Notes under the pieces: model-generated
Told to the model about the DNA's origin: nothing
Seen by the model: the letters and a program-made list of their open reading frames with translations, nothing else
Database searches by the model: none
Part shown: one piece after another, positions 2,457 through 49,600 of the stretch
Layout: the number at the start of each line of letters is the position of its first letter
Position numbering within the stretch: position 1 is the stretch's first letter
Position numbers and translations under genes: made by a program
Assembly: GCF_025024155.1 (NCBI RefSeq)
Contig: NW_026251720.1
Span: 434,001-498,000 of the forward strand
DNA from: Gamsiella multidivaricata
Lineage: Eukaryota > Mortierellomycota > Mortierellomycetes > Mortierellales > Mortierellaceae
Length of the DNA stretch: 64,000 bases
Reading direction: 5' to 3'

Positions 2457-3772
2457 GAACACCGCTCGGGCCAAGCAGTATTCCAGCAGTGATTTATGGA
2501 TAAACCGGTACTGATTGCCACTGCGCGTCAGAGAACACGCCTCACGCAAGAGCTGTTGCTTCTCGTTCTCCCGGCTAAAGAAGCTTTCTTTCCATGTCCC
2601 TTGATCGCGAAATGGCGAGTACTCGACCACCGGATTGCCCGCTTGCTCCTCGTATATCGCTACCGCTAGCGCTTTCAGAAAGCCAACTCCGTTCTGTGCA
2701 AAACCATCGTCGTACAAGTTCTCGAACACCTTCTTCTCTTGATAGCTCAAGTCCTTCTTCTCAACGAGTCGCTTCTTGCCTCGCTCCAACCATTGCTCCA
2801 CAAACTGGTCATACAACGCAACTCTCGTCACCCGAACAGCCGAGAGGCCTTGTCCTGGATCCACCATGCGCGGCAGTACCTCCAAGGACAGCGTCAACAT
2901 AAAGGGGTTCTTGACCAGGTCCTGCAGGCTGGGAATCAGATTAAGGGCATTCAAGTAGTCCGTCACTTGCCAGAGCGGCCTCGTTGCGGAGACATATTTC
3001 CTTATGTGTTCTTGAATTTGATCCATAAAGAATGGCGCAATGACCGCCTCTTGAAATGCTGGCTCTGCTTGGTGATTGTGATCTGCTGGCTGGAACCGAT
3101 CCCGATAATCGAGTCCAAGGTACTCGCTGCCGCAGCTAATGACCATCTGAGCCCTCCATCCTCCCACCTGATTCAGTCGGTTGCTCGTGTACAGGTTATG
3201 TGTCTGCTGGCTTTCATCATATCCATCACAGATCAAGATGAATCTGTGGTGGTCTTTCAGTTCTCGGATCTGGGACTCGGTAAACTCTGCCTTCCGTAGA
3301 TGTTTGGCAATCAGATCCTGTTCTGGCTTGTCGATTGCGGGTAAGCTGATAAAGAGCGGAATCCTGCCTTCCTTTTCCTTATAGGCATCCCACAAGTCGC
3401 ACTCGAGCTGCCGGTTAAAGGTCGACTTGCCTCCACCTGAATCACCTAGGTCGAACAGCTTGTCATCGGGCGCTTGCAGGTTAGCCTTGGCTTGAGGGGG
3501 GATGTACACGGCTCCGCCTCGTTCCTTCAATTGTTGCTTTCTCAGTCGTCTCAAGTCGGTTTCAACATCGGGCTTGTTCTGGACAAGGTCAAGCAATGAT
3601 GGAGATCCGACGGTTGGTAAGGCGACCTGCAGAGGATGTAAGCTTCGGGTTCCCTTTCGGCAATCCTGATAAAGAATCCTCTTCGTCTCATCGCCATTCG
3701 ATTCCAGCTCCTGCAACAAAGACTCGACACCTACACCATATATCGCGTAGATCACAATAGAATAACGTACAG
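2457..3772 (-). pseudogene. NLR pseudogene, NACHT NTPase segment
   Basis: This reading carries a P-loop LGDSGGGKSTF (about 3420-3450) that still fits GxxxxGK[ST]. Next come LFISLPAID, a Walker B-like FILICDGYDES and a GWRAQMVISCGSEYLG sensor segment, the normal order for a NACHT STAND ATPase. Immediately upstream of the P-loop, KLFDLGDS is shorter than I expect in relatives, where about 20 more residues (a hydrophobic beta-strand) precede the loop, so an internal in-frame deletion is likely. The 5' end joins the N-terminal segment across an inferred 59-nt intron (3773-3831). The product would end at the TAG at 2454-2456, just after the NACHT C-terminal helices. Confidence 0.8.
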
Positions 3773-3831
3773 CTATTAGTACCTGCTAGGCCGTGAACTT
3801 CATACGTCATACTAAGTCGACAGCCTCTCAC

Positions 3832-5180
3832 ATATCCGTTCATCATACATACTTGGCATAGCTGAGCCAAATGTCGAAGCCAGCTGCATAAGAATGTGAA
3901 GGATCCATTGCTTGACGAGGGCTTGCTGGCCCCATACTGCATCGTTTCGGTACATCTCGTCCAGAAACGCAACAGCGCCTTGGCGAGACTCGATGTCCCA
4001 TAGTGGATTGGCAGCAAGGTCCCTCAGCCGCTGGCATACTCCTAATTGAAAGGCTAGATCACGCCGGCAAGGTGCTTCGCAGACCAGGGTCTTGAACTTG
4101 GCGAGTTGACCGTCCCGAAGCAGTGTGTCTGTCCCGCGCAGTGCTGTATACCAGACACGTTTCTGGCTGAAGCTGAGACCGACCTTGAGAGATTCCAGCA
4201 GTCCTTGTCCACTTTCGACCAGTGCGCTCACACCTTCATACCCGATTTTCGCTACCTGGATCACCTCTCCCAGTCCCTCCTGCAGATGTCCGAGTCCTGT
4301 GATGAAGCCATTGACGTCCAGGCCTTTTACTGCGCTAACTAGCCCCGAGACACCCCTCAAAACAATTCCAGTGCGCCGCATCGTTGCTTGCCAGGGTGAT
4401 TCATTGTCTGGGACGCACTGCAGTGCTTGGAAGGCGTAGGCAGCCTGGTACACTAAGTAAGGGTCGCTGCTGCCTTGCAACTCATTCAAATAGGCAGAGA
4501 GTGGCTCGTGCAGCTCTACACGCTTTAAGCCTGAGACCTTGGTATCGGCCATGGCATCCAGGACATTGGACACTGCGAGTGTCAGATGGTAGATATGAGC
4601 CGGAGACTGATTGTGAGTATCTTGTAGGCGGGTATTGAGGATACGCAAGATCGTGACTAGGTCATCAGCGTCGAGATAGCCTGGAAAAGCGCCTTGGATC
4701 AGTTGCGCCAGCCCCTCGAGGGACTGCACATCCAGCAGGCTGGACTGTTCGATGCCATTGACAAAGAGCATGAGCAAATGTTGAAAATCGTCCTTCTCGA
4801 GAACTGGGCCCAGGCATATGGCTTCTGCGACGGCCTTGGCATCCTTGAGTTCGTCGCGAGTGAATGCTCGGATCACATCTGTTGCCAGTGTCCTGAGTCT
4901 CTCCTTCTCCTCTGCATTCTTTTCTGTAGATTCCACCCAACTTCCTGCAGCTGGTTCAAAGACCTCTTCGGGCGACGGCGTCACTTGCAAAAGACTGAGG
5001 CAGTAGGCGAGCTGGGAAGTATCACTGAGTCGCTCATCTGCCTCTGGTAACGCGATCTTGACGGTGGGCTGACGCATGTCATCGGGAAAGATATCCTCAG
5101 AGACCCGTACCATGTCGCGGTGGGCACTGTCGGTGGCAGAGGAAATTACAGGACCTGGATCTTTTGTAGGACGCACATGG
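3832..5180 (-). pseudogene. NLR pseudogene, N-terminal helical-repeat segment
   Basis: This exon of about 450 codons is almost all alpha-helical and rich in Leu and Ala, with Y..AYAFQALQ-type helices resembling armadillo/HEAT repeats. It also carries the ALPEADERLSDTSQLAYC motif that I associate with NLR-like proteins of Mortierella relatives. There is no in-frame ATG at its 5' end. It begins at a splice acceptor (AACAG before 5180) and links in phase to the exon at 5286-5579. It ends at a GTGAG donor (3831), whose 59-nt intron ends TACTAATAG and restores the NACHT frame. The family function is inferred: such N-terminal regions usually hold the signalling or oligomerisation part of an NLR. 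Confidence 0.75.
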
Positions 5181-8601: not shown

Positions 8602-10439
8602 TCATGCATGCTCCACAAAGCAATTCGTCAAATGGTCGAGCTCGATCGTATATCCCGAAATAACGTCCACAATCCGAATCCCTCCAATCTTTTGCACCCC
8701 ACTCGTCAACGGGAACCAGTCCAAACGCACGCGTACCTCTCCTCCCACCGGAACCGCTCCCAGCTGCCGACTGTTCGGTCCGCTCAAAAGAACCGATCCC
8801 ATCTTTTGCTTGACACCCGTCAGCATCAACTTCATAGAGTTCTGATCCTGAGATATACTCGAGGGCTGTTGCTGCTGTTGCTGCTGGTTCGACGGTAATG
8901 AAGGGCTGTCCAGCGGTCGGTTAGGCGGGACAACACCCCCTCTTGCGACCGCGGCTGGGGGTCGTGCCAATACCCCTCCGAGTGGTGGTTGGCCAGGAAA
9001 CTGTGAAGAACTGGACTGGCGCGTGGGTTGATTAGGTTGGCTGCTGTAACTTTGTTGCTGCGGCTGCTGTGGCGGTTGTTGTTGCTGTTGCTGTTGCTGT
9101 TGTCCTGATGCGGATCCCCCAAGGACTGGTTCTTGATAACGATATCGATCGAAAAGACCTCTTCCAGCCGAATCCTCTCCGGCACCTTGACCACCTGCAC
9201 AGCAATCTCATCCAGCGGGGAAGGTTTGCGCGTCAACTGGCTGGTCTGTAGCCGCCCTGTCTCGCCAAACTGCGACCTCCAGAGGATATCCATCTTGCCA
9301 AGGACGTTCGTTGTCTTTGCCAAAAGTTCCTTCCCTGGTTTCGGAGTCAGTACATAAAGATATTGTCGAACATCGTTGGGTGCAAAGTAGTCGTGTTTGC
9401 CGAAAATGCTCACTGGACCGCCTCGTTTGCTCTCCGTCGTGATTTTTGTGTCCCCGTCCTCGTCCTCGTCCTCGATCACGACGTTCAGATCTTTGACCGT
9501 GAATGCATCGGCAACTTCGAACCGCATCCGCTCCATCCACATCGTGACCCCAGAGACATTCTGCACCATTGCCTCTAACAGAACCAATCCGCCCGTGGAC
9601 ACATTCGCTACCGAGACTGGGGCGCCGCCGTTACCGTCCTGGGTCGAGACTGTTGTGGCTGGAGGATGGTTGACCTTGGTCTTGACCGAGAGCGGGTTCA
9701 TTACCTGGAACTTATAAAACTTCCTGAATGATTTCTGTTGCCCATCTAATGTCGTGTACTGGATCGAGCAGACCAGAATATGGATTCCCAGCTCTTTGAT
9801 TTCGTGCGATACAATCATCTCGTTGGTCTTTCCGGACTCCAGGAGTTGGATATGCCCGCCCGTGGCGGGTGAGGGCGGTACTTCCGATGGTGATCTTCCT
9901 GGCACATGTTGGCGCTGTCCAGCGAGGGTATCTGAGAGTGCAAACCGCAAGGTCGAGGTCTGGAGCTCTGCCTTGAGGATCACGTCTCTGACTGGGTGGG
10001 CTGATTCGTTGTTGGCGCAGATGTAGGATGTGAATGTCTCGCCAAGATAGATATTTCCAAAGGACGCAGGCATGGTAAGGAGCTCCGAGACCCCGAAATC
10101 GCCCATGTCCAGTGCTTCGACCTCATTGCTACTGCTATTGCCAGCATGCGCTTCATAATCGTTGGTAGGATGCACTTTAGCTGGTGGATGGACCCGTTCC
10201 AGCTGGGTGAGCGACAGGTCCGAGAGCGCTTCCGTCAAGATGGATGTCATATTCGGTCGCTCTCCCACGGGTGATGCCGTGGTAGCAGCAGCAGCTTCCG
10301 AGACGTTGGGAGATGTCGCAGCGTGAGGTGCTCCAAAGAAGAGGCCATGACCTGTAACGAGCGAAGGACGTGAGAGGCGCATGACCTTGAGAGAGATGAG
10401 ATGGCTCTCACGTTGCTGGTCCTGTCCACCTGCAGCCAT
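8602..10439 (-). CDS. TRAPPC13: Trafficking protein particle complex subunit 13 (TRAPPC13-like)
   Basis: Subunit of the TRAPP tether/GEF complexes that act on Rab GTPases at the Golgi and in autophagy (family knowledge). The start is the ATG at 10439: the following RESHLISLKVMRLSRPSL matches the conserved N-terminus of the family (DUF974). The middle has the beta-sandwich pattern FGNIYLGETFTSYICANNES, and the C-terminus RVRLDWFPLTSGVQKIGGIRI is typical. Two frames must be joined. A 68-nt intron at 8906-8973 (GTATTG donor, CCTAAC branch-like site, GACAG acceptor) does this exactly, giving 589 residues. A Gln/Asn/Ser-rich low-complexity stretch lies before the join. Without that intron the C-terminal domain would be out of frame, so this splice is important to verify. 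Confidence 0.9.
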
Positions 10440-11029
10440 GATGGTTGCCTGGGTCGTGTGATGGGTATGTGTCCGTTCTGGGAGTCCGAGATGTAGTCCG
10501 TGCAAGTCGCGTCGCGTCTCTTGGCGGCAGAGTGAGGGGCGATGGTGATGGAATCGGTCTGCACTTGGAAGCAGGTTTTCGTACAAGATGGTTGCGTTCA
10601 CGTACAGTCGAGCCCATTCTGTCCTCTACTTCTACCATGCCCAAAACAACGCGCTCTGGTCACACAGCCCCAGCCCCTAGTCCAAATCATACAAATCTCG
10701 AAAGAAGCACACTCTTTACGATAAGTGTCAATTCTTTTCAAAGTATCGTGCAAAGCAACAGCATAACCCATTTGTATCCATGTCGCTATATCAAGAATGT
10801 TGGATATGCACCCCTACACAGCCACCCGCATACTCAAGGAGCAACGGCGACACGGCCGCTTTCGGTGACAAAAGCGATTGTACACACCATACGAAGACCA
10901 ACAGAGATTGTGGAAGTGGTCTTCTATGCCTGCAGGAGCCTTTAGGTACCGAAGTCAATTTTTGCCAGCTTCTTAAGCACACTCCTAATCTATATATTTT
11001 AACAGGCATCAACGTGCCTGATTATCGTC
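10440..11029. other. TRAPPC13 upstream region, no gene seen
   Basis: Upstream flank of TRAPPC13 followed by unremarkable sequence. Several open frames overlap on both strands, but none has a recognisable motif. I see no clear TATA box. Confidence 0.4.
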
Positions 11030-21720: not shown

Positions 21721-24700
21721 TCAACGTGTTGCAATCTGGACAAAGCTGAACAGCTGTGAAAGGTCCACATAACGACGCGCATTCTTGTCGATATACTTGT
21801 CCGCACATGCCTTCATCTGCCGGATCAGCTCCCTGTTCTGCTCAATTTGAACACGCACTGCGCCATTCTTGTCAAAATCAATCTTCTCCAGTGCCTTGTT
21901 GACGTCAAAAATATGACTAAAGAACGACAGCTGGGTATAAAGGGCTCCGTCGGAATACTATCACAAGAAAATTATAGTCAATTAATAAGTTATCTAAATG
22001 CATAGTTGTGTACAGCAGCCACGAACCGACTGACACTTACTTCGCTGCGCATGCTGCCTCGGCATCCCTCGACAAGGCACCGGCGACCCACAACACTGAC
22101 CATCCTCGTCCGGTTGCGGCAGCCCTGATCGTCGCAAACCACCCATCCTTGATAGTATCTCTGAATATACTTCCGGATCGCCCCTGTTAGCTGCACGCTT
22201 GCGGATGCTGGTTGAGCGATCGACTTACAGTTGGGACATTGAAGGCCAAAGTAGCCTGTCGAGTTCTAATCAATAAAATAAGTTGTCGGGTTATTAACAG
22301 CACAGGCAATAACACCCATAACAGTCTCAGTGTTTGTCAATGTTCATGATCGATACGTACTGTCTCCATCAAGAGTGCGGAGCAGGCATATGTTGCTTGG
22401 CAAGCTCGACACCGCAGTTCCAGGGGTGCAGCATCCTTGAAACGCTCCGCATCAGATAATTGAGACGCCAGCGTCTGCAACTCCTCCTCCTGTGCAGTTG
22501 CCCGAACTGCCGATCTGAACTTTGACGTATCCAAGCCAAGGCATTCCGCCAATCGCGTTGCATCCGTGCCCTCGATAGGGTCACACAGACGTTCCAGGGG
22601 TGGATGGATCTGCTGGTTCAAGTAATACTCGTAATCTATGAAGACAGAAATGAAAGTTGGTGTTACTTTGCCGTCGCTGTGTTCCTTCATCCGGAAATGT
22701 TCTGTCGTCGTGATCGAATAAACACTTACCAATAGTAAGGCCTGATCCTGGTTCCAACACTTCTTCCGGATGATAAGCCCGTTCTGCATAGCTTCCTTTG
22801 TGCGTTGGCGAGTTCTCGTCTATGCAGATAACGTATGGAACGGTATCGCCTGCTCTGATACTAACGCCCTTGCGTTTAAGTCTGAGTGCGACCTGGACAT
22901 GCGGCTGCGACTTGGCGTCAGCATAGTCTTCGGGTGCTTTAGTTAGACCCTAAAATAGATATTTTTTTGTACAGTTGCTTGTTAGTTCGTATTCAGCAGA
23001 GGCGCGGCAAGCAAGCGCTTTTGAGGTCCTTAAAATGGGTACCTTGTTGACAATGAACATATCCATAGGAATAAGACCCTTCCGAGTCTCCTCGCCGACT
23101 TTGCGAAGGTAGCTATGAATATTCTCAATAACTTGTTCTTGGTCCTGATCGTTGCTCGAGAGGATCTCTGTCAAAACGTACCTATATTATGAAAAATGAC
23201 ACCGGCCAGCATTAACCTCTTGACCAAGCCAACATCACGCGGAGCAGTTGCCAAGTACTACTTACTCAGAGACATCCCGACTCAGTGCACACCAGTCTCG
23301 ACGAACCATATCCAAACCCTTTCTCTCCTGAATGGTCTCGTACTTGCCATTCTTCTCAACGACCATCAGGGCTGCATACTTCTTCTTCTTCAAAAGTAGC
23401 ATCCGCTGGTACATCCCATCCATTTCGATCTCCAGCAGTTTATACCGAGTATTGACAATCTTTTTCAAACCCTCAGCGATCGGTTTGACCTCCTCGACCT
23501 TCCTTGTGTTCGTATTAATCATGATTGAATCCGTGTCTCCATAAATGACCTATAGGATAACAGTGTACATGGCGGTCAGACACCTTGAGCATTTCAAATC
23601 GCCAGCTCAGCTTATCAAAGAAAGCGGCAGATAAACTTACATCGAGTCCGCTTTCCGTGGCAAGGTCGACTGTATTTTGCAGAATCTCTCGTCCTCTTGA
23701 TGTAATCAACATGGCAAGCGGCTTCGCGTAAAATCTCGAATAAGCAGCTCCAAGACAACCGTACATCGAATTAGCTGTCAGCTTGAGACCCTTCTGACGA
23801 ATGTCGTACTGAAAATGTGATCGGCAAAAAAGGGTATCATCATAGTTAAGATCAGTTTGTCAAGAAAAAGACATGATACGTTCCCGATAACAAAAAGAGT
23901 TGCACGTAAAATACACGTACCTCTTCGTATTTAACACCTGTAGCGGTCTTCATCAGCTTCTTGACTTCTCTTCTGCGCTCGACCAGATTCGCAAGAAGCT
24001 TTGGTAGAATTCCCTGTGGCAGACCCTCCTCTGGATAATCCGGAAGCGCATCATCATCCTATAGTAGAAAAAAAGTGAGTAGTTAGAGCACTGCAAGAAA
24101 AGCAAGACGCAGCTCAGAACCTGCTGCTGACTACTCTAAAAACGCAAATGCCTACCTTTTCCTTGTCATGCTTGACCGTCGTAAAGCAGATGTTGTACTC
24201 CTGGATAATCGAGGGATACAAACTGTTGAAATCCAACAGCAACACAAAATGGTCGTAGAACCCCTTCTTGGGTTCCAGGACCAAACCTCCCGAGTACTGG
24301 GGTTTGCGTCTCGTTCCCTTCTTCGGTGCAGTCGCATCATCCTGATCGTCCACATCCATTCCATTGACCATTGGTGGTGCCTCCTTGTCTTTGTAAAAGG
24401 ACTTGTCTGGACAGATGTACTTGTTTCGATGGAACTCGTGTAACAGAAGATACTCATTTCGCACAGCACGGCCAGCAGTCAGCGTCATCGACCATAGGTT
24501 TCCCGAAAGCGACGTCAGTTGTTTTGAAAGGGGCAGTAGCTGCAGTGAAAACATGAGTTCTGCGCAAAGGTATGTGTCGAAATCAATATGGCGTAACATC
24601 TTCTCGAGCTCCTCCGCACGACTAAACTGCGACGGGATTTTCTCGTAGTTGACATCCTCGCGGTTGATTTTTAGTTGAATCGACACTAGATTCGTCAAGC

Positions 24701-27700
24701 TGTAACTCTTCGCACGAACATGTTCCTTCGCTCCAATGTAGGTGTCGCACATAAGTCGTCCCGACATGATGTTCTTCTCCTGCGCTGTCGTATCTCCCAT
24801 TCCTCCTGCGCCTGCTTGAAGCTTGGGCCAACTATTGCCGACCATTCGAAAATATCGTTACCACAACTACATCTTCCATCATATAATAAAGAATATTCAT
24901 GACAAGGGTAAAGTCCCTACATTGTACGGCGAAGTCTTCCAATACTGGACCAATGGTCAGCTTTCGTATGCTTCATGCGGTGGAGCAGCACATCGAGATC
25001 GAACCCCACAAAGTTGTGCCCGACAATAACATCGGGATCAGAGCTGCGGATGCGAGCGAGCAACAGGTTCAGCAGCGATCGTTCAGACGCCTGCTTCACA
25101 ATCTTGACCTTGCTCTTCTTGATAACATCGTCAAACATCGGCGGGAATGGGGAAGTTTCCAGCTTGCGAATATATGTCTGTTTCGACACAATCCTCCTAT
25201 TGTTCTCCACGGGCTCATCCAAGCGAACTAAAATTTTGGCAGGAAATGTATGTCGTGATGAGTACCAATTGTATCTCCACTTATCGCAGATATTAGAATA
25301 CGTCCTAGCTTCACTTCACGAACCTTCATGGTAGACAGAGGTGCTCGCAGCAACGACCTCGTTCGACTTGTCCTTGGGGTTGAGAACCGTTCTCAAACTG
25401 AGCGACATGACACACAAGGGTGGTGGCGGGAGATCGGACGAGTCATTCAGTGGTTTAATGTCCTTTGGATTGCCTACTGTAAACTCGCTCTTACACCATG
25501 AAACCTACAAATTTGGTACATTCTATTAGTACATACACTCTGAAAATATAACATACCCCCGAGTGCCAATTCACAATTACAATTGTTTACCTTGGTATTG
25601 TTCATCTTTGCCTGTTTGATTTCCAGCCACGATGGACCCATCAAGTTGCGCTTGATTATAAAGTGCTCCAGAGCGCTTGTATTCGCACCAAAAACATGGC
25701 TGAAAGTCTCGCCTTTGAGATCCGTTGGCAGACTTGGCACTATAGGAACCATAGCAGGCGATAGCAAGGAGTTAATACTTAACAATTAAGGCGGCTCCGA
25801 TACGATTTTAGATCATCCAGCAGGGAGATGCCACCTACAGGAATAATTATAAACGACCTTGAGATACTCAGCAGAGGACGGAATCCCTGGTAAATCAAAG
25901 GCGTATTTCCTCTCCACTTGTTTTGCGGCCCATGTCGTGACCTTGTACGATTGTAGGATCTCCCCAAATTCCGTGTAGACGTCCTCCATACCGACATCAA
26001 TTTCGGTCTCATTGCCTTGCTTGTCGACCCGTTTAGCACGGGGCAGGAGAAAAATATTGCGCTCCATATTGTGTACCGCAACACAACAGCTGATGTGGGT
26101 GTTTGATGCTCTTTGTAAAACCTAGAAATCCCGAATTGATGGTGTACTTTAGTACTAGCTTTGAGAAAGCATCCAAATGATCGCTCCATGTCATCTTGAA
26201 ATGAATACGATGAGGCATACCTTTCCAAACAGATAGATAATACCACGAACTTCACATGCGTCAATCCAGTACATCCTCAGCGTGCCGTCCTCCTCCTTGA
26301 TGCTAGCTTCCTGAATATCAGTGGCGCTGTCCGTCTCGACCTTGGTCTCTGCATGCACCTGATTGAGAGAGTCGTCGACAGTCATCCAGTCCTGACGAGA
26401 GTAGCTCTCGAGCTGCTTGATAACAGTTGCCTTTTCCTTCTTACTCGTGTCGTTCACCAACTTCATAGGTGCTCTGGATTCCTTGACCGCAATATTCTTC
26501 ACCGCCAGCGGTGTATAGTCCTCGTCGTTGACCTGGAAGGGGTTGTGCTCGGTCTCCCACTTGATTTCCCTCTTCACTGCGATCTCGGGTGGTGGTGTTT
26601 CCTCCACAACATCATAGGCGTCATAGATATCATCCTGTTCAAACGCCTCCATTCTCGAAGCCAGGCTCCGTGGGATATCGTCAAACTCCTCGTCCTTGAT
26701 CTTTAGAGGACCCATTTTCGAAATGAGAACCCGCTATTTGATGCCATAGACGAGAAGAAAAAAAAAAGATTAGGCAAGGATCAGGTCATAATCTTTGAAA
26801 CGATGCAAGCAAAGAGACTATATGCTTACCGTAGGGGTCTGGAGTACGGCTTTTTTGCTAGGCAGGAGCGGCTTCTTCGTAGGAGTGGTATCGACCGGGT
26901 CATCCAAGTCCTGAAGAAGCGAAGCTACGAAATTATCATCGGCTGCGGATTGTTTGGTCTATTGAGAGCGGAAATGAATCGGTAGCATTAGTCATAGCCT
27001 AAATCAGGGTAGGGTTATACGGCCTAAACCTCAACTCGATCCATTTATCATACCTGTACAGGTCTCGCGACTCTAGGTCGTGATTCGGCCTTCATGAATG
27101 CATCCAAGATGTTCTCCTTTGCTTTGGGTTTCGGAGCATCTTTGTGAGAGCTTTTTCCCTTTCCATTCTTCTTGGATCCTATGTGTCATAACGTTGCGGA
27201 TGAAAAGGATGTCTGTGAGAAAGAAAACAAGAATATTGACCAACCAAGAAGCCTCGAGCATAGTGTTCAAAGTGGCATAGATACCTTTGGTTGATGTTTC
27301 TCCATCCGGGTATTCGTCAGAGTAGTATCCCCGCTCTCCATCATCGTCATCGTCCTCATAAACATAACCTCGACCATCATCATCCTCTACAAAGTCGTCA
27401 TGATCCTGCCGCAGCCTCTTATTCAGCCTGTCGTCGGCAATTTCGTCGTACAGATCCTCCGCCTCGGCAACCTATCAAGATGAAAAAATAAAATAAAATA
27501 CCGACGGCTTAGTAAATAGTGCGGAGAAAGAGCTGGTTGGCATGGCTTAAGTGCCAAATAGATGTAGCCGAGATTGCATCTCACAGTGTCCCGTACCTCG
27601 TATTGATGAATGCGCGACACGCCTGCCTCTTTTGCTGCTCTAGCGGCCTTGAGCTGAGCAATGGCCGAGCTGCTTGACCGTTCCGTGGCCCTGCGTTTTA

Positions 27701-27713: not shown

Positions 27714-28717
27714 GTTGGGGAGGTGTGGGGAGGAGATGAAGGAAAGTGCCGAACAGAGAAACGACTAGGGATAAACAAAAAACGCGCTTGGAACAGACAC
27801 ACAGAGAAAATCAGAAATCACGGCCAAGATAAACAAAAACACTGAACGCGCTTTTTAATTTGACTGCTTTTGGATCGCCGCGATTTTGCACCACTGGAAA
27901 AAGAGGCCCAGCTGAATATCTGCCACTGAAAAAAAAAAAAAATCCATCGTAACCGTATCCTAGTCGCAGCATGTTTCAGTGGATAATGTTTGCTCCACAT
28001 TACCGAGGAGATTGAGGGGGAGGGGAGGTAAAAAGCAAAAATCAATATCAGTTGCTGGACCACACGTAACCAAGAAGCAGGTAGACCATTCCAGTTGTGG
28101 CGAGGGCCGTTCCTGAATTGGAGAAACAGCCATGCAGTTGAAGAGCGGTGTAACGGTTTTTGCAGTTACGGAAAGCTGGATGACCAATAGCAACTGAGCA
28201 ACGAGGTCTAAGATATTGGTGTGCTCCAGCCCAATATGGTTATCCTCGACAAGTCCATGTAGAGCATCATCTCTTTCGTTCTCCTTCTAAAAGACCCATC
28301 AACATCAGCAGGCATCAACACCAGGATCGGCGCAGAAGACGCTCATACGATTTCGTCGTTGAATTAGTCTTGTCATCGGATTCAGCTGGATCAGTCCAGG
28401 GGCAAACAGATCATTACTGGACAAACGCACTAGCCCGTGCGCATTGCTCTCTTTGGGCATACACACATACCTCAGGAAACAGCGTTCTTTTGTCCGCCCC
28501 TGCTTTTGATACTCACCAGTACGCACGAACTGTCTGCCTTCTTCATTGCCATTATCACAACCATTCAAGATGCCACCTGTAAGATACTATACGACTCGGC
28601 TATATTTTTTGTATTTTACCTCTGATATTTTCTCTATGGTGCTGGATCTCACACGCATGCATTGATTCAATGTTTCAATATCTCTAGTTACGACCGCCGA
28701 TCTACTCGGCGCGGGAC
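27714..28717. other. Divergent intergenic region between POL1 and the GT31/GT32 gene
   Basis: Should hold the promoters of both genes. An A-tract is at 27928-27940. No open frame with a recognisable motif and no strong TATA box was seen. Frames at 28305-28625 overlap one another on both strands and are rejected. Confidence 0.45.
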
Positions 28718-31700
28718 ATGCCAACGCCATACTTGAAGCTCAGTCGAGGACTCCGGGTGTTATGTCTTTGCCCAGCAGTATGGGGTATCTACATCCATCT
28801 TCAACAGGCAAATGCTATTCAGGGTCGAGATGCTCGTGCCTTGATGATGATGAAGAGCTCTGCCCTCGATAACTATGTCGGCATCTTATGGGTGAGTGGC
28901 ATTCATTTCTTTTTACTTTTTCTTTTCATTTTAGCGGACCAAATGAATCCAGGGACCAGGAATGAAAGCCATTGGGCAATACGGACATTTTCCACACTAT
29001 GACCTGACTAAATGACCTATTCTCTTACTTTTATTGTCGTATTTATTTCTTTTATTAGTGTACGCTGGGTGGTCTTTGGAGCTTCTGGTTGACGAACAAT
29101 TTGATCCGCCGCTGGTTCACCCACTACGAACCTCGCCCAGCCATGATCCGACTCTTCACCCTCGCCGTCATCTTCTGGTTCTCGGTCGTGTCCTTCGTCA
29201 GCTACTTTGGGGCCGACGAACCGATCTGGCCCTGGATGGCTATCTGTGCCATCCTCGCCGTCGCCCAGATCATCCAAACCATCCACTTTCGCTTCCGTGG
29301 CGTCTACCGCCTCGACCCCCAGCGCAACCCCCGTGGCGTCGACCCTCGCATGATCATCCTTCGAACCGTTCTCATCCCAGGAGGCGTCGTATCCTTTATC
29401 ACCATGATGATGCTCCTCCATCAGAATAACACCCGACCCTCCTCCGCCGAGACTCTTGCCTCCACAGGGGCTACGGCCATTGCTGCGATTAACGCTGCAA
29501 AGCAGATCATGGGATCCGCACAAACCCAGGTCATGATCCTGATCTTGACATCGTGGACAGAAAAAGGATTTCACAAACGGCAAACCTTTCGAGGGACGAC
29601 ACTTCGGCTCCTGCCCCCAGCATCCGCTCAGTTCGCGTTCACTTACAAGTTCATTTTAGGAGAGGCGCCGAGTCCGAGGGCGAGAGAGTCCATGGGACCC
29701 AGGATCAGGGAGGAGCAGGAAGAACACGACGATCTCTTGATCCTGCCAGTCTCGGACACGTACGAGGATTTGAGTTATAAAGTCTTCAAGGCACTGGAGT
29801 GGAGCAACAAATTCAAGTTTGATTTCCTTTGCAAGACGGACGATGATATTTTCGTGCGATGGGATGTGGTCGCTCGAGAGTTAATAGAACTGGGACCGAC
29901 ACACTATTACTGGCGGGGGCTGGGATACTGGGACATTCCACCGATCACGAACCCGGACAACAAAAACATCGACAACCAATTCAAACTCGGAGTCTTCCCG
30001 CCCTTTGTCGCCGGATCACTTTACATCTTCTCGAGAGACGTCGTCACCCTGCTCACCTATCCCGGACCACGGTTCTTCACCAAAAATGAAGACCAGAACG
30101 TCGGAATCTGGCTGTACTCCTACAACATCAAACCCATCCACGACAAACGCATCCAACAGTGGGACGTATGCGAGAACGACATGATCGCTAAACACTTCAG
30201 CGACGCCTTCACCCCTGTCGAATCCATGCATGAGATGTATCGGAACGTGATCGAACGTCGTCCTCTCTGCGAGGGCTTCCGACAAGTGTATTGTGCTGCA
30301 TGCTATTCATGCCTCGGTCGGAGCAACCACTGGAAAGACTGGGGCGTCGCCTGTGACAGTGTCAAAGGAATCACCAACCTTCAGAAAAATGGACTCTACC
30401 AAGGAAAGCTTACCGTCGATATCAAGGATCCCATGCCGACTCTCGGCGCAAGGGACGAATGGATCCTGCCAGGACTCTTGACAGACACCAGCAGTATCTA
30501 TTCGGATTCAGACGACTGGGCAAGGCTGCACTGGGCGATTTGGACTACGGATCCGGTGACGACATGGCAGCCACGACACTTCCAGGCCATCGAGACGCTC
30601 TTTGTCCACAACCCGAATGCCGTCCTCATCATCTTGTCGAATACCCTGTCCGCGGATTTCTTCGTGGACTATACCCGGCAAGGATATCGGATTCACATCC
30701 TCGCCTTCTCCAAGGACCTACTCTTAAGGCGTAAGTGGTTCTTCAGCCCCAATACCGAAGATTGGCTCAAACGATGGGACGAGTGGGCCGATGCTGGCAA
30801 GTTCTTCCCCGTACACCTGGCGGACTACTTGCGATTGGTAGCCTTGTACAAGTACGGAGGGCTTTACATGGACATGGATGCACTGTGGGTACGTGCCCCA
30901 GGGGATGGCATGACCGAGTTCATTGGCGCAGATATGTCTGATTACGATGGCGATCGAGTTTGGACCTTGGACGACAAGAACACCTATCTGGCCAACGGCG
31001 TCATGCGGTTCCAGCGCGGCCGATCCATGTTCCGACACATTGCCGACAGCTACTTTACGCTGACGAACTATGACCCCGAGTGCTTCAACTGTGGTGGTCC
31101 CAAGGCCTTTACAATGTACGTGAAGGCACATCGTGCCACACTCGAGAACAATGGCCTGAGGATTCTACCACGCGAGGCGCTCTATCCGTACAACTGGAAG
31201 GAGATCGAGGCCGCGCTCAGGCCATCCAAAAATCCAGAGGAGGAGATCCAACGGGTAGAGCAGCATGGCATTGGGCTGCACCTCTACGGTAAGGTCACGA
31301 GCAAGAAGGCAATTGAGGACGGGAGCGTCGTCGCAGCGGCCCTCAAGGTCTGGAACCTGGATATCTTTCCCAACGCGCCGCTGTCCTCACCAACCCTTCA
31401 AGGGCCCGATACACTGTACTACCCTGTTACTTCTGCGTCTTCTTCCTCGCCCCCATCACTGTTGGTGGCGCCCCAGGGCTCGCTTCTCGAAAAGGAACCC
31501 GGCACATTCCGTGGCATCGACGCTGTATTTATTAGAGGCATTCATCGGTCTGCTTCCTCCTCGAACGCTCCTATCACCAAAAAAGCGGCTGTTATCATCA
31601 CCGTGCAAGAGGGCTTCATTATCTCGGATGTCTCTGCGGCTGGCGCTCGGAGGATCGAGATGGATCTGGGCGAGAACGTGACCATGGCACAACTGAACAC

Positions 31701-31845
31701 GGCTCTGTCGAGGATACGATATGTGCCTCCATCAAGTTCATCTCGCATTTGGGATGGATCCGATCAAGTCAGGATCCAGGTATCATTCGGCGATATGCAG
31801 CGAGAACTAACTATCCCGGTCGTCCGGAGGACGATCAAGGCGTAA
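28718..31845 (+). CDS. Bimodular glycosyltransferase: membrane region, GT31-like, GT32-like, C-terminal beta domain
   Basis: Two exons, 28718-28891 and 29059-31845 (GTGAGT donor, TTATTAG acceptor), give 986 residues. The ATG at 28718 fits a protein with about five hydrophobic segments in residues 1-180 (around 10-30, 48-75, 87-110, 113-135, 156-178), so it is probably a Golgi/ER multi-pass protein. Residues about 190-470 resemble the beta-1,3-galactosyltransferase family (GT31): FLCKTDDDIFV (DxD-type site, about 315-323), PPFVAGSLYIFS and KNEDQNVGIWL. Residues about 510-790 resemble GT32/alpha-1,4-galactosyltransferase enzymes: NPNAVLIILSNTL, HLADYLRLVALYKYGGLYMDMD (DxD about 662) and CGGPKAFTMY. 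The tail (about 865-986) looks like a cadherin-like beta-sandwich (AQLNTALSRIRYVP). Substrates are unknown. Confidence 0.9.
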
Positions 31846-33368: not shown

Positions 33369-36300
33369 TTACTCCCAAACATCCTTCCAAAGCTCGTCTT
33401 CCTCCTTCAGCCATTCCTGGGACACGGTCCCGTCGCCGCCATTCTGGTCCCAGATATCGCGAAAGATCATCATCAAGTTCTTGAGGCCCAAAAGATAGCC
33501 CTTGTCCGGCTCATCAGGGTGCATCGGCGGGTATGGTGGCATGTTTCCCTGGTTGTAAATCCCCGCTGTGCAGTGCGCAAAGTCGATGACTTTGAGATCA
33601 GTGCGAGGCCGATCCTGAAGCCTCCTGTGAGGATGGAGAGGCCGTTTAGGATGCTGCTGTTGCTGTTGCTGAGGTAGCTGAGGTACAGTCGTGTCTGTGT
33701 GCGATACTGATGCCTCAGCCGATGCTGCATTCTGCTGACCCACTGGTGGTACAGTCGAAACATCAGTATCCGTCGTGTTCAAGCCGGATTCCTCAGTGCA
33801 ACCGCGACCAGTAGCTACGCCCTGAAGTGGTGACTTTGAAGGTCCGCTATCGCCATCGTAGTAGATCAACAAGCTGCTAGCGTAGAAGCGATAGCCATTG
33901 AGGCTCTTGATGATCTTGGCAAGGTCTTTCAACTTTCTTTGCAATATCGGTATATGGCTCAGATCCACCTCGCGTCCGTTGTAGAAGAATTCGCGCAACG
34001 TGAGCGGGAGGGTCTCTTTGGTCAACTTTCGGCCATAGTACTTATTTTGGAACAGGAAGCGACGCGTGATAACATTGTAAGCCTGCATAAGAAATAGTAT
34101 TAGATGTGCTGATTTGATCAGGAATCAGGGTCGAAGAAAATATAGATCAATCCAAATACGAACACATTACCTGCATGCCACAGATCCTGATGCCAGTCTC
34201 ATAACTGGTCGTCTTTTGGCACTTGCGCATCTGACCTCTCATCTTCTTCTCGTTAGCCCAGATTCCATACTGTCGGGTACCCATTTTGATGTCAAGGATA
34301 CATGGCGCCTTGAGACCGTCGGTCAGATCCTCCAGGAGAATGTACTTTCCCGGCACGGCATCGGAAGGCAGTAATTCCCGTTTGAACTGCTCCATTTTGT
34401 CGGTTTGGGGGGCATCTCCACTCTTGATAAGGTTCGGCTGGGAATCAGATCTAAGGCCAGGTCGTCCACGACCAGCGTTGTCGACGATCCATTCATTGCG
34501 ACCGACAGGAATGACGACAGGATTCTTGTCCTCTGGTTGTGTAGCGCCCTGTTGTTCATTCGATTGAGCCTTGAGCATTGTCTCGGAAACCTCCAAGTCG
34601 TCCATCTGGAATAGGTCGTTGTTCATGTCACTCAGGTCCATGGCTGCTGATTCGCCCTCTCCCCTAAACCTCTGTGTGGTTGCTTGCTCCAAAACGCAAT
34701 CTGATGGTGATTTGTGGTCGGTGCTGTCGGCTGAATACTTTTCAGCACCGCTGGAAAAGCGCGGTCCTGAATCAGAGTCGTAATGGCCAGCATCTGACAA
34801 CTCCCGTCTCTTGTGCTCCTCGCGCGAAGCCATGGCCAGATTCAGATTCGAGAGCGAATGTCGGCGTGGTACCTGTTTGACCATTTCTTCACAGCCTTCA
34901 TCTGGAGAATCGTGAGAACGAGAACAGAGCTCATTGCGTGACCTTGACGTGAACCCAAAGTGTTGTCGGAAAGCCTTAGCGCGAGCCTTTAGGGAATGAG
35001 GAGAAAGTACTTCCCGCAAAACCTTCTCCTTCAGCGCTAGATTGATCCTTGTAAGGCCTCTGATCTTTGTGAGGCTGGTAGGGCTCGATATGGACGATGG
35101 GATGGGAAGACTGGAGTGAGTTGGAACCGAATTTGATCCCATAAAAGAGCTCAAGTAGCGATTCTGACCATTGATAGAACGACTGTCGAGCGACCGACCC
35201 TCATCCATGATGTCAACGGTCGATCCAGGGAATCTGCCGGGGGTCGAGGGCCATTTCCAGGACTTTTTCATTTTTTCCAGCATAGCATCCGTGACGATAT
35301 GGCGATTCTTTTCCAGCACAACTTCGGGGACGAGCTCTCCTGGACGGCCTCCATCCTCTGGGTTGGGCAGTTGACGATAAGTGACGTTCAGGACGCCCAG
35401 ATAGGCAGGGATGAAGGGTAGCACTTCTGGGTGGTGTGCCTCAAGATACTCGTAAAAGACCTGCTCGTTCTCAGAGACAGGTTTGCAGATTGCTTTGTTG
35501 GAAAAGCGCAAGAATGATGCATGGCCCCCCACTTGGTTCGTGAACGGCACCAGAGGCAATGCGGGTGAGTCCGAATGATATGCACTTGTTTCTCCACCAA
35601 AGTCCTCGTCAGCAGAGTGCCATGAGTCATCGCCGTCGTCCTCGTCCTCAGCTTCATCATTATCCATGTCGTCCTCTGCATCAGCGTCGTTTGCGAAGCT
35701 GTGGTCGTCCGGATCGATGTTCGATGCTGTATCGTGATAGTTGTCGAGATCCACATCCGCGATATCACTGTCCAAGTGGTGCTCCGGTGTGTCGGATGAT
35801 GACCAAAATGAGTGTTGGATCTGTGCGGATATGGCTGAAGGTGACTGGACTCGCGGACTAGTGGGAATGTACAACTTTTTTCCGGACAACTCTGGAGTGG
35901 GCAGGGCGGCGAAGGAGGGAGAAGTCTTTTGGAAGGTGTTCTTGGCTCGAAAGGTTGGCGAGAGGACTTCAGGGCGCGAAGTAGAGGTGGAACTGCTGGC
36001 ACTGTTGATAATGATGTTATTGCTGTTACTGCTCGCGGCAAGGGTGTTGGCGGCCAAGAGTGCTCCCAAGGACTTGCGCTTGTTCAGAGCCGACAGAGGG
36101 GAGCGAGTCGAGTCGTTTAAAAGATCTGCCTCGTCTGGGCCAGACATGGGTGAGTCTGGGACAGAGTCTTCAGAGCAGATTGAGGTACCTGGCGAGTTTT
36201 GTCCACTGGAGGTATAGTGGATGTTGGAGGAGGACGCGCTGTTGATCGCTGGCTGGATCCTGCCATGGCCATGGGAGTATAGATCGCTCTTGAGTCGTGC

Positions 36301-36549
36301 TGGAGGGTTGGGTCGCTGCTTAAGAGAGGGGGGCAGTGAGGAGCTGAAGGAGATGACTGTCTGGTTTGGTCTGGTGTTGGATAGACCAGACGCGTTGTCG
36401 GTATAGTCGACTGCTTCAACTGAAGCGGTGGCATCGCTACTGCTGTAATTACCGCTGTCGGCGTTGTTGTCGTGGTCGTTATCGTTTCTGTTGCTGTCGT
36501 TGATGGTGAGGTCGAGAGGGTGGAGTTCCTCTGCTGTGTGAAAGGACAT
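33369..36549 (-). CDS. KCS1: Inositol hexakisphosphate kinase
   Basis: Makes the inositol pyrophosphate 5-PP-InsP5 (IP7) from IP6, which controls phosphate homeostasis and polyphosphate synthesis through SPX proteins (family knowledge). Two exons, 34171-36549 and 33369-34082, give 1030 residues. The first in-frame ATG is at 36549 ([14 protein letters not shown]). Residues 1-560 are Ser/Asn/Asp-rich and mostly disordered. The kinase region starts around [21 protein letters not shown] and [10 protein letters not shown]. The IPK signature PCILDIKMG is at 749-757, SSLLIYYDG at about 862-870, and DFAHC at about 960-964 (usual DFAHT). A Gln/His-rich insert precedes DFAHC. The 5' leader is a long pyrimidine-only tract. 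Confidence 0.95.
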
Positions 36550-39234
36550 GGTGGGCTCCTGCTGCTTCCTGGAGGAGTTTTTTTCGGTGGTTGTTGTAAA
36601 GGATGTCACGGATGTAGGCAGCGAAGGCTGGTCATTTGCAACAGCAATAAAGCGATGCAAGTTCAAGAGTAGGGAGTGCGGTGTATTTGGGCTGAGGTGT
36701 TTGTTGGCCCACGATGGGAGGGGGAGAGGAGGAGAATGAGGCAAGGAAAGAGGAGAGAAGGATGGAATGGTGGCAAAAAAAGGATTGATCAAACAATCAA
36801 ATCTGATCAAAAAAAAAAAAGAAAGAAAGGAAAGGGAAGGGGAATAAGGTTGATGGGCCGCTTGACTGCGGTCTTTATTGTCTTGTCTGTGGAATAAAAG
36901 AGGGCCAAAGCAAGGGAGGAGGATGCGATGGGTGTGTGTGTGTGAGAGAGTGAGAGAGAGAGCGTGGGGAAAAGAGAATGAGACGGGGACAGGGACAGGA
37001 CTAGGACCAAGGGAATGGGGAGGAGTGGGGAGTGGTCAAGGCCCGGTGGAAGAAGGAAAAGGAATGAAATGAGATGAAAGAGGGGAAAGGGGAAAAGAAG
37101 AGAAAAGAGAAGAGAGAAAAGAGAAGAGAGAAAAGAGAAGAGAGGAAAGAGAAGAGAGGAAAGAAGAAGAAGGAAGAGGAGAATAGAAAGAGAAAAGAAA
37201 TAAGAAATAAGGAAAAAGGAAAAAGGTCCTGGCGCTTTTGAAATTGCTCGCGGGGCTATGACGACGTCGAAAAGAAAGCGTAAAGTGTAGTTTAATGCGA
37301 AATACTGAATACGCGGGTTTGAATTGCAATTGCCCAGCTGCACCTTGCCCTTCCCCCTCTCTTTCCTCGGGGGAACAGGGGACAGGGAAACAAACGGGAA
37401 CAGCCACTTGTTCGGTGGGACTTCGACACCTGCTTCGCTTTGCTTAGCTTGCTAGCCTCGCCAGCCAACCCCCGGGAGGCATACCACACATACCCGCCAG
37501 GAGCAGTTCAGGATCCAATGGAGGGCAGAAAGCAATGGGCGCCGTTGTCCCTTCCCGACCACTGCCACTCCACCCATCAGTCCATACACCTCACCATCCT
37601 AGACCAGGCTCCATTGTGGACACAGCAGCCGACAGCGACATGAACATGGGCTGCCATCACTACCATCGACCATTGCCTCGACAAGCACACAGAACGGTCA
37701 AAGCACAAAGTATTATATCCTGTCTTGTCCTGACTTTGTTTCCCTCTCATTATCTTCAGCTTCAATTGCCTTGCTGCAGGAATGAAGCTCTCAACTAAAT
37801 AAAGAGAACAATATATTTGCCACGGATAGGATTTCTGCTTACACAAAGCACATGAAATGAAGAACGACCTGCCCTTTGTCCGCATTTGATAGATTATGAG
37901 GAAATCGGCCCCTCCCTTCGAAGATCAAAAATGAACACATGCGTACGCACGTATGAACGCCCGAACATACGAGCAAACAACCTGCGCGTCTAATTCAGCA
38001 CACAACACACAACAGATCCCAAAGCGCTTGTTTGTATGCCCACTCCGATCTACAGCAAAGTAATAATCGCTGTCCAATCAAGCTGTGCCATGCTTGCGAC
38101 CCAATTGCTGTTTACCTCTGTCGCCAATTAAACAAATTCACAGATGGTCAAATGAACAATTGCTTCAATTACTTCAATTGCTGCAAGTGCTCATTACGGA
38201 AACACTTTTTGCTGTCTATTACTCTCTGATTTCTCGGGTATCAACAGAACGCTGTAAAAAAAAAAAGGAGGATAAACAGAGACAACCATGGATCGTTCTA
38301 CTGCTGCCCTTTGTTTTACTGCTGTTGTTACACGTTTCGCATTGTTCATGTCAATGCTGCTCACTATGACAATATTAGCACGGCAGCCATCAGGACCGGT
38401 GGAGACACTTGGATGGTCTTCCCTCTCCTCGCTTGTCAGATCGAGCACAGACACCACGTCCTTAAGATGTCAACGGGGATTGGATGTCACTTCACAAAGT
38501 TCAAAACCCTCGACTACGAGGAGTGGCACTAATGCCTTTCTAGCAGACGATTCGTCAACAGAAAATACGAACAGATTGTTGGAGCGAGCATTCGTGTATT
38601 CCTTTGCCTATTCCAGCAACGGCTCGTGGAAAGCAAATCAAAGGTCAGGGCAACCGCTACGGTTCATTAATGTCGGACTGATAAAAATTCATGGGCCAAC
38701 CAGATGTTGCACATGGTGGGTGCGTGGATGTCAACATACGTGGAAATGCAAGCTATATCAGATTCAGAATGGTGCGCTAGGCGAGAAATAAAAATCGGTT
38801 CATTTCTATGCTGGCGTTGTTGTTTGTAAGTCTAGAGTTGAGAGCGTGCATGCATCCATTGGCTGTGATGCTTCCTCATGGTCGCTCTGCCAGTCGCACG
38901 GCAGGCAAAGTCATGCACCTCCCCACAATTATCTCCTCTGCTCATTGGTCGATACGATGTATGTCATTCTCATAAGTGAGGCGAAGCTTGCATGCAACGA
39001 ACCATCTTTCAAAAGTAACTTTGGTTGGACGGGTGCTCTTTTTTTTTTTTCAATCGACTTGGCCTGACCGCAGCGCAGATCTGTAATTTCGGACTTTGAT
39101 CCAATCTGCTTCGCCCCTTGCAAGCTGGGGGGAGCTTCCCATAATTGCAAGGTAAGCAATGCACACATCTTTTGCTCATTTGCTCATCATCAGGCTGAAA
39201 AGATCTTTCTTCCATCATCCACCTTCCTCGCACC
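36550..39234. other. Long divergent intergenic region between KCS1 and the ArfGAP gene
   Basis: The part next to KCS1 (to about 37240) is the purine-strand tract listed separately. From 37250 to 39190 I see no recognisable gene. A 167-residue plus-strand frame at 38288-38791 starts with ATG and a hydrophobic stretch, but it has no family resemblance and is not called. Nothing clearly marks promoter elements. Confidence 0.4.
36770..37240. repeat. Polypurine/polypyrimidine tract upstream of KCS1
   Basis: Nearly all purine on the plus strand, with AAGAG/AAAAGAGAAGAG units (about 37070-37190) and a short GT run (36933-36944). On the KCS1 strand it is a CT-rich tract beginning about 220 nt upstream of the ATG, so it could be promoter or leader. 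Confidence 0.8.
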
Positions 39235-46600: not shown

Positions 46601-49600
46601 CTACCTCAGCAAATAGCTTCTCCTTCTCGGGCATGGCCTTTTGAGCCGTGTTCTCTGAGAAACTGCGCTTAATCATCTCCTCGACTCGAAGCGCCTCCAC
46701 GCGAAGCAAGTTTAAAATCATGTTGTACGTCAATCGGAACTGCGATAACAACTTTGTGGCCTTGCCCAACAACATCTCTTGCAGCTCGGTTGCCTAATAT
46801 AAACAATACACCTCAATATTAGAATTTAAAATTCCATTGAACAATAAGAAAATACTTTTTTTTTTTCGCGAATCGCGATATTATCTTACCTCTGGCGGAT
46901 CTCCATTGCATGCGATAATAACCAATCCTGTTGAGTCCAGACCACGTCTTCCAGCACGACCCGACATTTGGGTATACTCACCTATTTCCAAACAGAAAAA
47001 ATAAATAAATAATTGAATATGATGTTTAGTAAACGTGTATACGACCAGCCTGCGTCTAGAAAGTGCTCAAAACAGAGGCTCTTGTTACCTGGCAAGAGAT
47101 TGCGAAAACTACGTCCGTCATGCTTGCGGATACCCGAAAACACGACAGTACGGGCAGGCATGTTCACACCCTATGACAGTTTATCAAAATTCCAAAAAAA
47201 AAAAAAAAAAAAAAAGTATCAATGGGACCGTAGAGATGCTCCTTCCATACTTCGTGCTTCTCCAAAAAACCCCACTTACCATCGCAAAGGTTTCAGTAGC
47301 GAACAAAACCTTTACCAATCCGCGCGCAAACAGGATTTCGACCATCTAAAAGGTTCATTTAACCAAAACACCATGTCAATAAAACCATATCTCATTGCGC
47401 CCACAACAAAATCTCGATAAACCCCCTTCCAAGAAAAGGAAAAAAAAAAAAACGAACCTCCTTGATGATCGGCAAGAGTCCAGAATGATGGACCGCGATA
47501 CCTCTGCTCAATAGATCCCGCATTCTCTGAATCTGTGGTAACTCGCGATCGGTGCCGTGCAATCTCACGAGCGACTTTTCAAAGAACACATGCACCTCAC
47601 TCTTCTGCGACGAGGTCATCAGATCTGTGCTCGAAAGTCCCGACGCATTTTCCTCACACTTCTTCTTCGAGAATGTGAACACAACCACGGGCAACAACTG
47701 CTTCTTGTTCAGGTATCCAACCAAATGTGTAAACAGGTTCTTGTCCTGCTTGTCGTTCCTCCAGCCACCACCACCTCCTCCGGTATTCCCTCCACGCCCT
47801 CCACCACCACCGCGTCCTACACCTCCGCCTCCGCGACCTCCTCGCAGTGCCAATTTTGTGTCGGCCTCCTTCTTTGAGAGGGCATCGACTGCGTTCTTGT
47901 AGCCGAGATTGAGCCAGGTCTGCTTCGCGTCGACAATCTTGTAGACCTCCCGGTTGGCGAACAAGTGGTGCTCGAGCGGGACAGGACGCTTCGGAGTGCT
48001 GATCACATAGATATCCTTCTTCTTTGTCCGTCCGACCCAGTCTGCAAACTCCTTGGTGTTGGGTACTGTGGCCGAGAGCAAGATCAGGGTAACATGTGCC
48101 GGCAGCATGATAATAACCTCTTCCCAGACAACTCCACGCTCCAGATCGTTCACATAGTGGACCTCGTCAAAGATCACAAACTCGACATCGCGGATCAAAT
48201 CCGCACCTCGATACAGCATGCTCCTTAAAATCTCCGTCGTCATAATCAGACACGACGCCTCCGGGTTGATCTGCACGTCTCCTGTTAGGATACCAACCTC
48301 CTCGAACGTGCCCTTGAAGTCCCGGAACTTCTGATTCGAAAGCGCCTTGATGGGTGAGGTATAGATGGCCTTGGTCATGTGCTTGGCCGCCAACGCGATT
48401 GCATATTCTGCCACGACGGTCTTTCCGGCACTGGTGTGGGCCGCCACAAAGACACATTCGCCCTTTTCCAGATGGTAGACCGCTCGCTTCTGGAAGGTGT
48501 CGAGTTCGAATGGGAAGGGATGTGCCATCTCCGGTACGAGCGTGTGGAAGTCGTCAAAGGATTCATTCACATCCACAACATGTGCCCACTCGCGACTCTT
48601 AGTCTGCGCTGCAGTGATGGTCCGCTTGGGTGCTGCTACTGGGATAACAGTGTCAAGGATGGCGTCCACCTCGTCTGAGGTCTCTGTCTTTGGTTCAGTC
48701 TGCGGTTGCGTCGTCTCGTTTGCTGTCATTGTTGCGGTCATTGCCTCAGGCTCTTCCTGGGCTGGACGCGGAACTGGGTCCATCAATGCCTCAAAGTCGG
48801 CCTCCTCATCCATATCTTGCTCTGCGAGGATATCTGCAATGTTGAACATGGCTCCGTCCTTGCCCATCTCTGCCTCCATCTTGTCATCTGCATCTTGATC
48901 TGAGAATAATCCTCTGCTGAACCCTGGTGGTTTAGTCAACAAGCCCTCGGATCCCAAAGACAAGTCTTCAACAATCGCCCGTGCGATATCCACGTCATCC
49001 ATTCCAAGCGCCTCCTTCTCTTTTTCCAAGACACTGGCGCCCTTGATCTCTTCCGGATCCAATCCACCAGGCGTAAAGGGAAAATACCCAGCTTTTCCTC
49101 TGACAAAATCGGCTCTCTTGCCTGGTGCACGCGAGAAACTGGTCGAGTTCTTAGCGGTCATGATCGATGTCGAGGCCACAGTATTGGTGCCGGCCAGATG
49201 TGTCGTCCGCAGGTCCTTTTCGTAATATCCCGCACGCTCGCCATAGACATTGTGGGGTTCCAGGGCAATGGTTGATTCCGCGGGTGAGGGGTCGAGCGAG
49301 AGAAGGGTCGTGAACTCTTGGTCGCGATCAAAGACCTCCTGACATTTGTTGAGCCATTCGGTCGAGAAGGTGTTGCTTGGGAAGAGGTGTTCTCGCTCGA
49401 TGTCCTGTTTGATTTTGTCGAATGTTTGAGGTCCAATGATCGACTCTGGTAACTATCATAGCAGACGGAATCCGTACTTGGTTAGAAGATACTATGGTGT
49501 TGATCGCATTTCATTGCACGGTATGGAACAGTGCCAGTGCATCCCATACCTCGAACTTTTCGGGCAGGTTCTCTGTGGGCACGCCAGGGAAGGCTGCGGA

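Follow-up and report, generated by a model that had tools for sequence, protein, structure and literature searches.

The gene described here lies in a 64,000-nucleotide stretch of Gamsiella multidivaricata DNA (contig NW_026251720.1, positions 434,001 to 498,000; "the window" below means this whole stretch). Its product carries a multi-pass membrane region of the EOS1 family, then two glycosyltransferase domains, one of family GT31 and one of family GT32, and finally a C-terminal beta-sandwich. A sequence-only reading of this DNA had proposed that one polypeptide joins a GT31-like and a GT32-like enzyme behind several membrane helices. Sequence and structure prediction together confirm that the observation is real: this appears to be one conserved gene, carrying EOS1 and two catalytic domains that look intact. 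The coding sequence is modelled as follows.

28570..28578, + strand: probable first coding exon (Met-Pro-Pro), placed from splice signals and the N-termini of homologues P0002, P0010 and P0040
28579-28687, + strand: first intron (GTAAGA...TCTAG)
28688..28891, + strand: second coding exon, carrying the first hydrophobic segment (TM1); its junction to the third exon reads through as in P0001
28892-29058, + strand: second intron (GTGAGT...TTAG)
29059..31845, + strand: third coding exon, 928 codons plus stop, a single open frame

The N-terminus of the three-exon model, MPPLRPPIYSARD, resembles those of P0010 (MPPLRPPFYSRD), P0040 (MPPLRPPIFSLQD) and P0002 (MPPQRPPLYSVRD). The ATG at 28718, from which a 986-residue protein would start, is probably internal to this longer model. 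Residue numbers below refer to the 986-residue form; the longer model adds 13. The linker between the two catalytic domains (residues 501-530, approximately 30400-30500) is where a split into two genes might be looked for. Of the 58 alignment rows longer than 880 amino acids, 42 have every linker position occupied and the remaining 16 have at least 90% occupied, in keeping with the single gene first proposed.

Membrane region and catalytic domains

The domains and motifs of the protein are placed as follows.

28739..29424 (residues 8-180, across the intron), + strand: five hydrophobic segments and EOS1 match (Pfam: PF12326), from hydrophobicity and Pfam
29521..30204 (residues 213-440), + strand: GT31 catalytic domain
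29839..29847 (residues 319-321), + strand: GT31 DDD motif, from the alignment
30088..30093, + strand: GT31 ED motif, E402 and D403, aligned with the EDV of B3GalT6 and B3GalT5
30169..30354, + strand: Cys-rich segment (C429, C462, C470, C473, C476, C490), each Cys present in at least 57 of 58 rows
30475..31329 (residues 531-815), + strand: GT32 catalytic domain (Pfam: PF04488, PF04572)
30871..30879 (residues 663-665), + strand: GT32 DxD motif, DMD
31279..31281, + strand: conserved His799 of HLYGK, a putative third metal ligand (H in 55/58; role taken from that predicted for Cgm1 H318)
31396..31842 (approximately residues 838-986), + strand: C-terminal beta-sandwich

The hydrophobic segments span approximately residues 8-30, 51-71, 87-105, 113-132 and 156-178. 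In window-averaged hydrophobicity the last three give clear peaks and the first two weaker ones. In the predicted structure, which covers the last exon only, TM2-TM5 are helical and one further helix stands ahead of the GT31 domain; TM1 falls outside the model. The sequence-only reading was right about the five segments and missed what they are. PF12326 is matched at 55 bits (1.2e-14) in the third exon alone and at 66.7 bits (3.1e-18) in the N-terminal 260 residues, against a cut-off of 23; the best stretch covers positions 3-86 of the 163-position profile, and a second stretch adds to it. Positions 2-163 are matched in three Pucciniomycotina (Mixia, 1.2e-44; Meredithblackwellia, 1e-40; Phenoliferia, 2.1e-42) and positions 4-162 in two Mucorales (P0073, 2.3e-17; P0076, 9.8e-19). 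Reversed and shuffled N-termini of the window protein and of Mixia, four sequences in all, failed to match EOS1 at E <= 10, so composition alone cannot produce it. P0041 (Entrophospora) has approximately 170 residues more ahead of EOS1 than the window protein, its EOS1 beginning at 223.

Over the same 58 rows the mean number of Lys plus Arg is 2.4 in loop 2, 5.6 in loop 4 and 0.1 in loop 3, which is consistent with cytosolic loops 2 and 4 and lumenal catalytic domains. Of the Cys in the catalytic part, eight occur in at least 57 of these rows. Loop charges and Cys together suggest that both catalytic domains would face the lumen of the endoplasmic reticulum (ER) or Golgi.

Both nucleotide-sugar sites proposed from the sequence fall in the families to which they had been assigned. 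For the first, a TDDD near residue 317, the 928-amino acid exon matches PF01762 (Galactosyl_T) at 78.3 bits (8.6e-22; cut-off 23), and the DDD of residues 319-321 aligns with B3GalT6. This part has the GT-A fold of its family, and solved GT31 enzymes match the predicted structure, in which 19 of 29 ten-residue blocks of the GT31 core have a predicted local distance difference test score (pLDDT) of at least 84. D319, D320 and D321 are kept in 52, 58 and 55 of the 58 rows; E402 is kept in 55, and D403, which we take to be the catalytic base, in 54. For the second site, an MDMD near residue 662, the same exon matches PF04488 (Gly_transf_sug) at 45.8 bits (1e-11; cut-off 23) as well as PF04572 (Gb3_synth) at 29.3 bits (1e-6; cut-off 22.3). 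D647 (57/57 non-gap rows), R650 (56/57), D663 (57/57) and D665 (56/57) are nearly invariant, and the GT32 core blocks mostly have pLDDT 84-96. D647 and R650 stand 16 and 13 positions ahead of the first D of the DxD motif, the same spacing as D179 and R182 of Cgm1; such spacing is common to GT32 and GT44. Structural comparison of this domain, aimed at telling a GT32 fold from those of GT8, GT24 and GT44, ends in a near tie (YeGT, 15.4; UGGT, 14.5; Och1, 14.2).

Pfam cut-offs, predicted fold and solved GT31 and GT32-like structures all point to two catalytic folds behind the multi-pass region, as had been proposed, and at the level of sequence and predicted fold one chain carries two apparently intact active sites. 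The C-terminal domain had been called cadherin-like. It is a beta-sandwich, so the term stands in a loose sense; residues 816-986 match neither cadherin nor any other Pfam family at E <= 10. A scan of NCBIfam gave one match only, at 0.09, which we judged to be chance.

Homologues and history of the fusion

We compared 75 homologues, from candidates limited by length and shared words. In precomputed Pfam listings, which show presence, EOS1, GT31 and GT32 occur together in 57 of the 75 (P0055 through PF04572 alone). GT31 and GT32 without EOS1 are listed for six (P0004, P0019, P0020, P0061, P0065, P0066; 657-904 amino acids), EOS1 and GT31 only for nine (P0040, P0064, P0069-P0075), and GT32 only for three (P0039, P0067, P0068). 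For P0064 a separate Pfam scan did find Gb3_synth. Domain order was taken from the alignment: the TM2-TM5, GT31 and GT32 columns are each at least half filled, in that order, in 59 of the 75, and the C-terminal sandwich is there too in 57. The arrangement thus recurs in several fungal groups, and holders of all three families include Mortierellomycota, Glomeromycota, Calcarisporiella, Basidiobolus, Jimgerdemannia, Bifiguratus and Pucciniomycotina.

Eight catalytic residues (319, 321, 403, 647, 650, 663, 665, 799) are all kept in 46 of the 58 long rows, the window protein included. P0017, P0031 and P0033 have the first D of the GT31 motif replaced by E and D403 changed, and P0032, P0034 and P0036 have the third D replaced by N; all six keep the GT32 residues. 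P0031 and P0034 belong to a second-paralogue clade of Mortierellomycota and P0017 to the first clade, while P0032, P0033 and P0036 are outside that tree. Altered GT31 sites beside intact GT32 residues suggest a division of labour among paralogues.

The Gamsiella genome itself has paralogues. A genome-wide EOS1 search found this gene and one other, a count that is a lower bound because introns break matches. The other (L015; G000:C159:236000-240500, open frame 586-3444, - strand) also encodes an EOS1-GT31-GT32 protein and aligns in two pieces at 63-66% identity. Across 952 aligned positions it shows zero mismatches to P0029 of G. multidivaricata; the one gap is where the raw frame seems to run through an unspliced intron. 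Both fusion genes match Gb3_synth above cut-off, and the genome's two other GT32 matches, scanned as single open frames, do not at E <= 1. A third homologue (L016; G000:C13:439000-442500, - strand) has a hydrophobic N-terminus and GT31 only, an acidic tail replacing GT32. Galactosyl_T is matched at 1.8e-6 on its first piece, and Pfam gives no EOS1. It keeps EDD and has SAQ where others have EDQ, and may be non-catalytic.

Is the fusion old? Separate trees of the N-terminal and C-terminal halves, built from 35 long rows, have four main clades in common (Mortierellomycota, Glomeromycota, Pucciniomycotina and Basidiobolus), all of them starred in both trees. This agreement suggests that the fusion is old and has been passed on as one piece. 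On deeper order the trees disagree: Pucciniomycotina pairs with Glomeromycota in the N-half tree (95), and Basidiobolus with Mortierellomycota in the C-half tree (97). The GT32 branch of Bifiguratus is very long (1.87). In a quick tree of 45 rows, rooted by midpoint so that loss versus gain is a matter of inference, the Mucorales share a starred group of 10 rows with GT32-bearing Jimgerdemannia and Bifiguratus. GT32 would then have been lost in Mucorales, and a GT31-only ancestral form is not favoured. Geosiphon (GT31 only) groups with Glomeromycota, which needs a second loss of GT32 or a short gene model.

The membrane region gives the fusion a link to yeast. Eos1 of Saccharomyces cerevisiae is a stand-alone protein of 366 amino acids with no known glycosyltransferase domain. 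The membrane region of the fusion matches its Pfam family, most fully in Mixia; the likeness is drawn through the family profile. A word-based search aimed at stand-alone EOS1 gave eight matches, seven of them with EOS1 plus GT31; another such search returned none. A 190-amino acid model, P0082, has EOS1 only, with profile positions 4-40 alone matched. No yeast-type stand-alone Eos1 was found in such searches of limited candidates, by which its absence is not proven. According to passages citing Nakamura 2007, yeast eos1 has an N-glycosylation phenotype. It is tempting to hypothesize, tentatively and at less than even chances, that EOS1 is a dedicated glycosyltransferase membrane module. The ancestor would have been EOS1-GT31-GT32, from which Mucorales shed GT32, and yeast Eos1 would be a remnant or split-off partner still serving Golgi glycosyltransferases. 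If true, this would account for the phenotype of eos1 mutants. The mechanism of Eos1 is unclear, and a family tied to catalytic domains in one chain offers a direct hint at its role.

Proposed activity and its alternatives

We favour, with moderate confidence, a bifunctional EOS1-GT31-GT32 glycosyltransferase of the ER or Golgi lumen. The EOS1-type domain would anchor the protein with both catalytic domains facing the lumen. The GT31 domain (inverting) would attach a hexose in beta linkage, with Gal from UDP-Gal the likeliest, and the GT32 domain (retaining, with a Gb3-synthase-type region) would next add an alpha-linked hexose, possibly 1->4, onto that beta-Gal. The C-terminal sandwich may aid binding of the acceptor or the membrane. 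We infer the order of steps, the sugars, the linkages and the acceptor, which could be an N- or O-glycan outer chain, a wall heteropolysaccharide or a glycolipid. Successive addition of two sugars to one acceptor is plausible: the domain arrangement is common to relatives in several fungal groups, so the parts probably act in sequence on the same molecule. Such a protein would be a candidate for making a two-sugar unit in arbuscular mycorrhizal fungi and in soil fungi of the Mortierella type. It would also offer a natural case of an inverting transferase fused to a retaining one, useful for comparing how two sites cooperate in one chain.

The closest parallel is in Cryptococcus, where a beta-Gal step has been ascribed to Ggt2 (GT31) and the GT32-related Cgm1 adds alpha-1,4-Man to beta-Gal. 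By description, both systems would set an alpha-hexose on the Gal of a preceding beta-Gal step, and the authors of Cgm1 name YeGT as its best structural match, as for the GT32 domain here; Ggt2 and Cgm1, however, are two separate proteins. Human B3GALT6, B3GALT5 and B3GNT2 share GT31 and are single-pass, one-domain enzymes that lack EOS1, GT32 and the C-terminal sandwich. Fungal Och1 and enzymes of the GT32/A4GALT type are also close, but the sequence match to Och1 is weak (0.027), YeGT and UGGT match too, and here the domain is fused behind GT31.

Several observations weigh against the proposed activity. The authors of Cgm1 place it in GT139, a clade that stands outside GT32, and for Ggt2 no activity was detected. 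Fungal GT31 also contains a galactofuranosyltransferase, so the donor is not necessarily UDP-Galp. PF04572 is listed for only 37 of the 57 three-family homologues. The GT32 half is absent from the matches in eight Mucorales (Phycomyces, Fennellomyces, Zychaea, Cunninghamella, Pilobolus, Halteromyces, Gongronella, Choanephora) and from that in Geosiphon, in all of which separate GT32 genes were not looked for. Twelve of the 58 long rows depart at some checked residue, nine in GT31 and five through departures or gaps in GT32, with P0038 and P0057 in both. Neither loop 1 (2.3 Lys plus Arg) nor the stretch after TM5 (3.1) helps to decide the topology. The predicted template-modelling score is 0.54, with pLDDT 43-76 in the membrane part and 41-63 at residues 291-320 of the GT31 part, and the model therefore does not give the mutual placement of the domains.

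One acceptor option within the favoured reading, which we consider somewhat unlikely, is a glycosphingolipid headgroup: GT31 and GT32 would extend a lipid-linked sugar, and the sandwich would aid access to the lipid. The relevant Foldseek match has an E-value of just 1.6e-3, however, the sandwich is a common fold, and EOS1 points toward N-glycosylation. Neogala-series glycolipids were considered as a product; passage searches in two papers found nothing on them.

Less probable still is that one site alone is catalytic in vivo, while the other has a binding or chaperone role, as in glycosyltransferase pairs that form heteromers. The altered GT31 motifs of P0017, P0031-P0034 and P0036, with their GT32 residues intact, fit this idea, as does the C13 homologue with its SAQ; retention of all eight checked residues in the window protein and most long rows argues against it.

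A processive polymerase alternating two sugars, in the manner of chondroitin synthases, is very improbable. Chondroitin synthases combine GT31 with GT7, and LARGE is likewise a two-domain transferase. CHSY3/CHPF and WbbM are among the structural matches and, like LARGE, have two glycosyltransferase domains per chain; they differ in family pairing, in lacking EOS1 and in arrangement, with a root-mean-square deviation above 20 A. The second domain here is of GT32 type, and GT7 is absent from the five families that Pfam gives for the exon at E <= 1. The sequence-only reading had likened the protein to bifunctional heparan or chitin enzymes, a comparison weakened by the Mucorales matches without GT32 and by paralogues with a degraded GT31 site and intact GT32, from which the two steps look separable. 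Finally, that two adjacent genes were joined by mis-annotation or assembly is extremely improbable, given the single open frame, the region order shared by 59 homologues and the filled linker in all 58 long rows.

How much of this is new? In its source, P0049 bears the name "Glycosyltransferase Family 31/32 protein", so the GT31/32 pairing was already known to annotators. Among open-licence PMC articles (including PMC5225481, PMC5872309, PMC6582843 and PMC12215403), with subscription journals outside the search, we found no title naming EOS1 with a GT31/GT32 protein. A 2026 survey (PMC13161914) reports beta-1,3-galactosyltransferase 6 (GT31) absent from flagellated fungi, Dikarya and Zoopagomycota; the sections consulted do not mention the fusion. 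Here Basidiobolus and, within Dikarya, Pucciniomycotina have the fusion, though the survey may draw the family more narrowly or more widely. Two-domain glycosyltransferases are already known, and the new part is the EOS1 link with the GT31 and GT32 pairing.

Neighbouring features

ARAGORN found no tRNA anywhere in the window. The other genes and gene pieces recognized are all on the opposite strand.

1134-5176, - strand: frames matching WD40, pentapeptide, NACHT and ARM_5, a NACHT/WD40-type gene or gene pieces
8832-10601, - strand: TRAPPC13
24114-24845, - strand: family B DNA polymerase piece
33369-36810, - strand: inositol polyphosphate kinase (PF03770), divided between two frames and adjoining the fusion gene
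47392-49179, - strand: Ski2-type helicase piece
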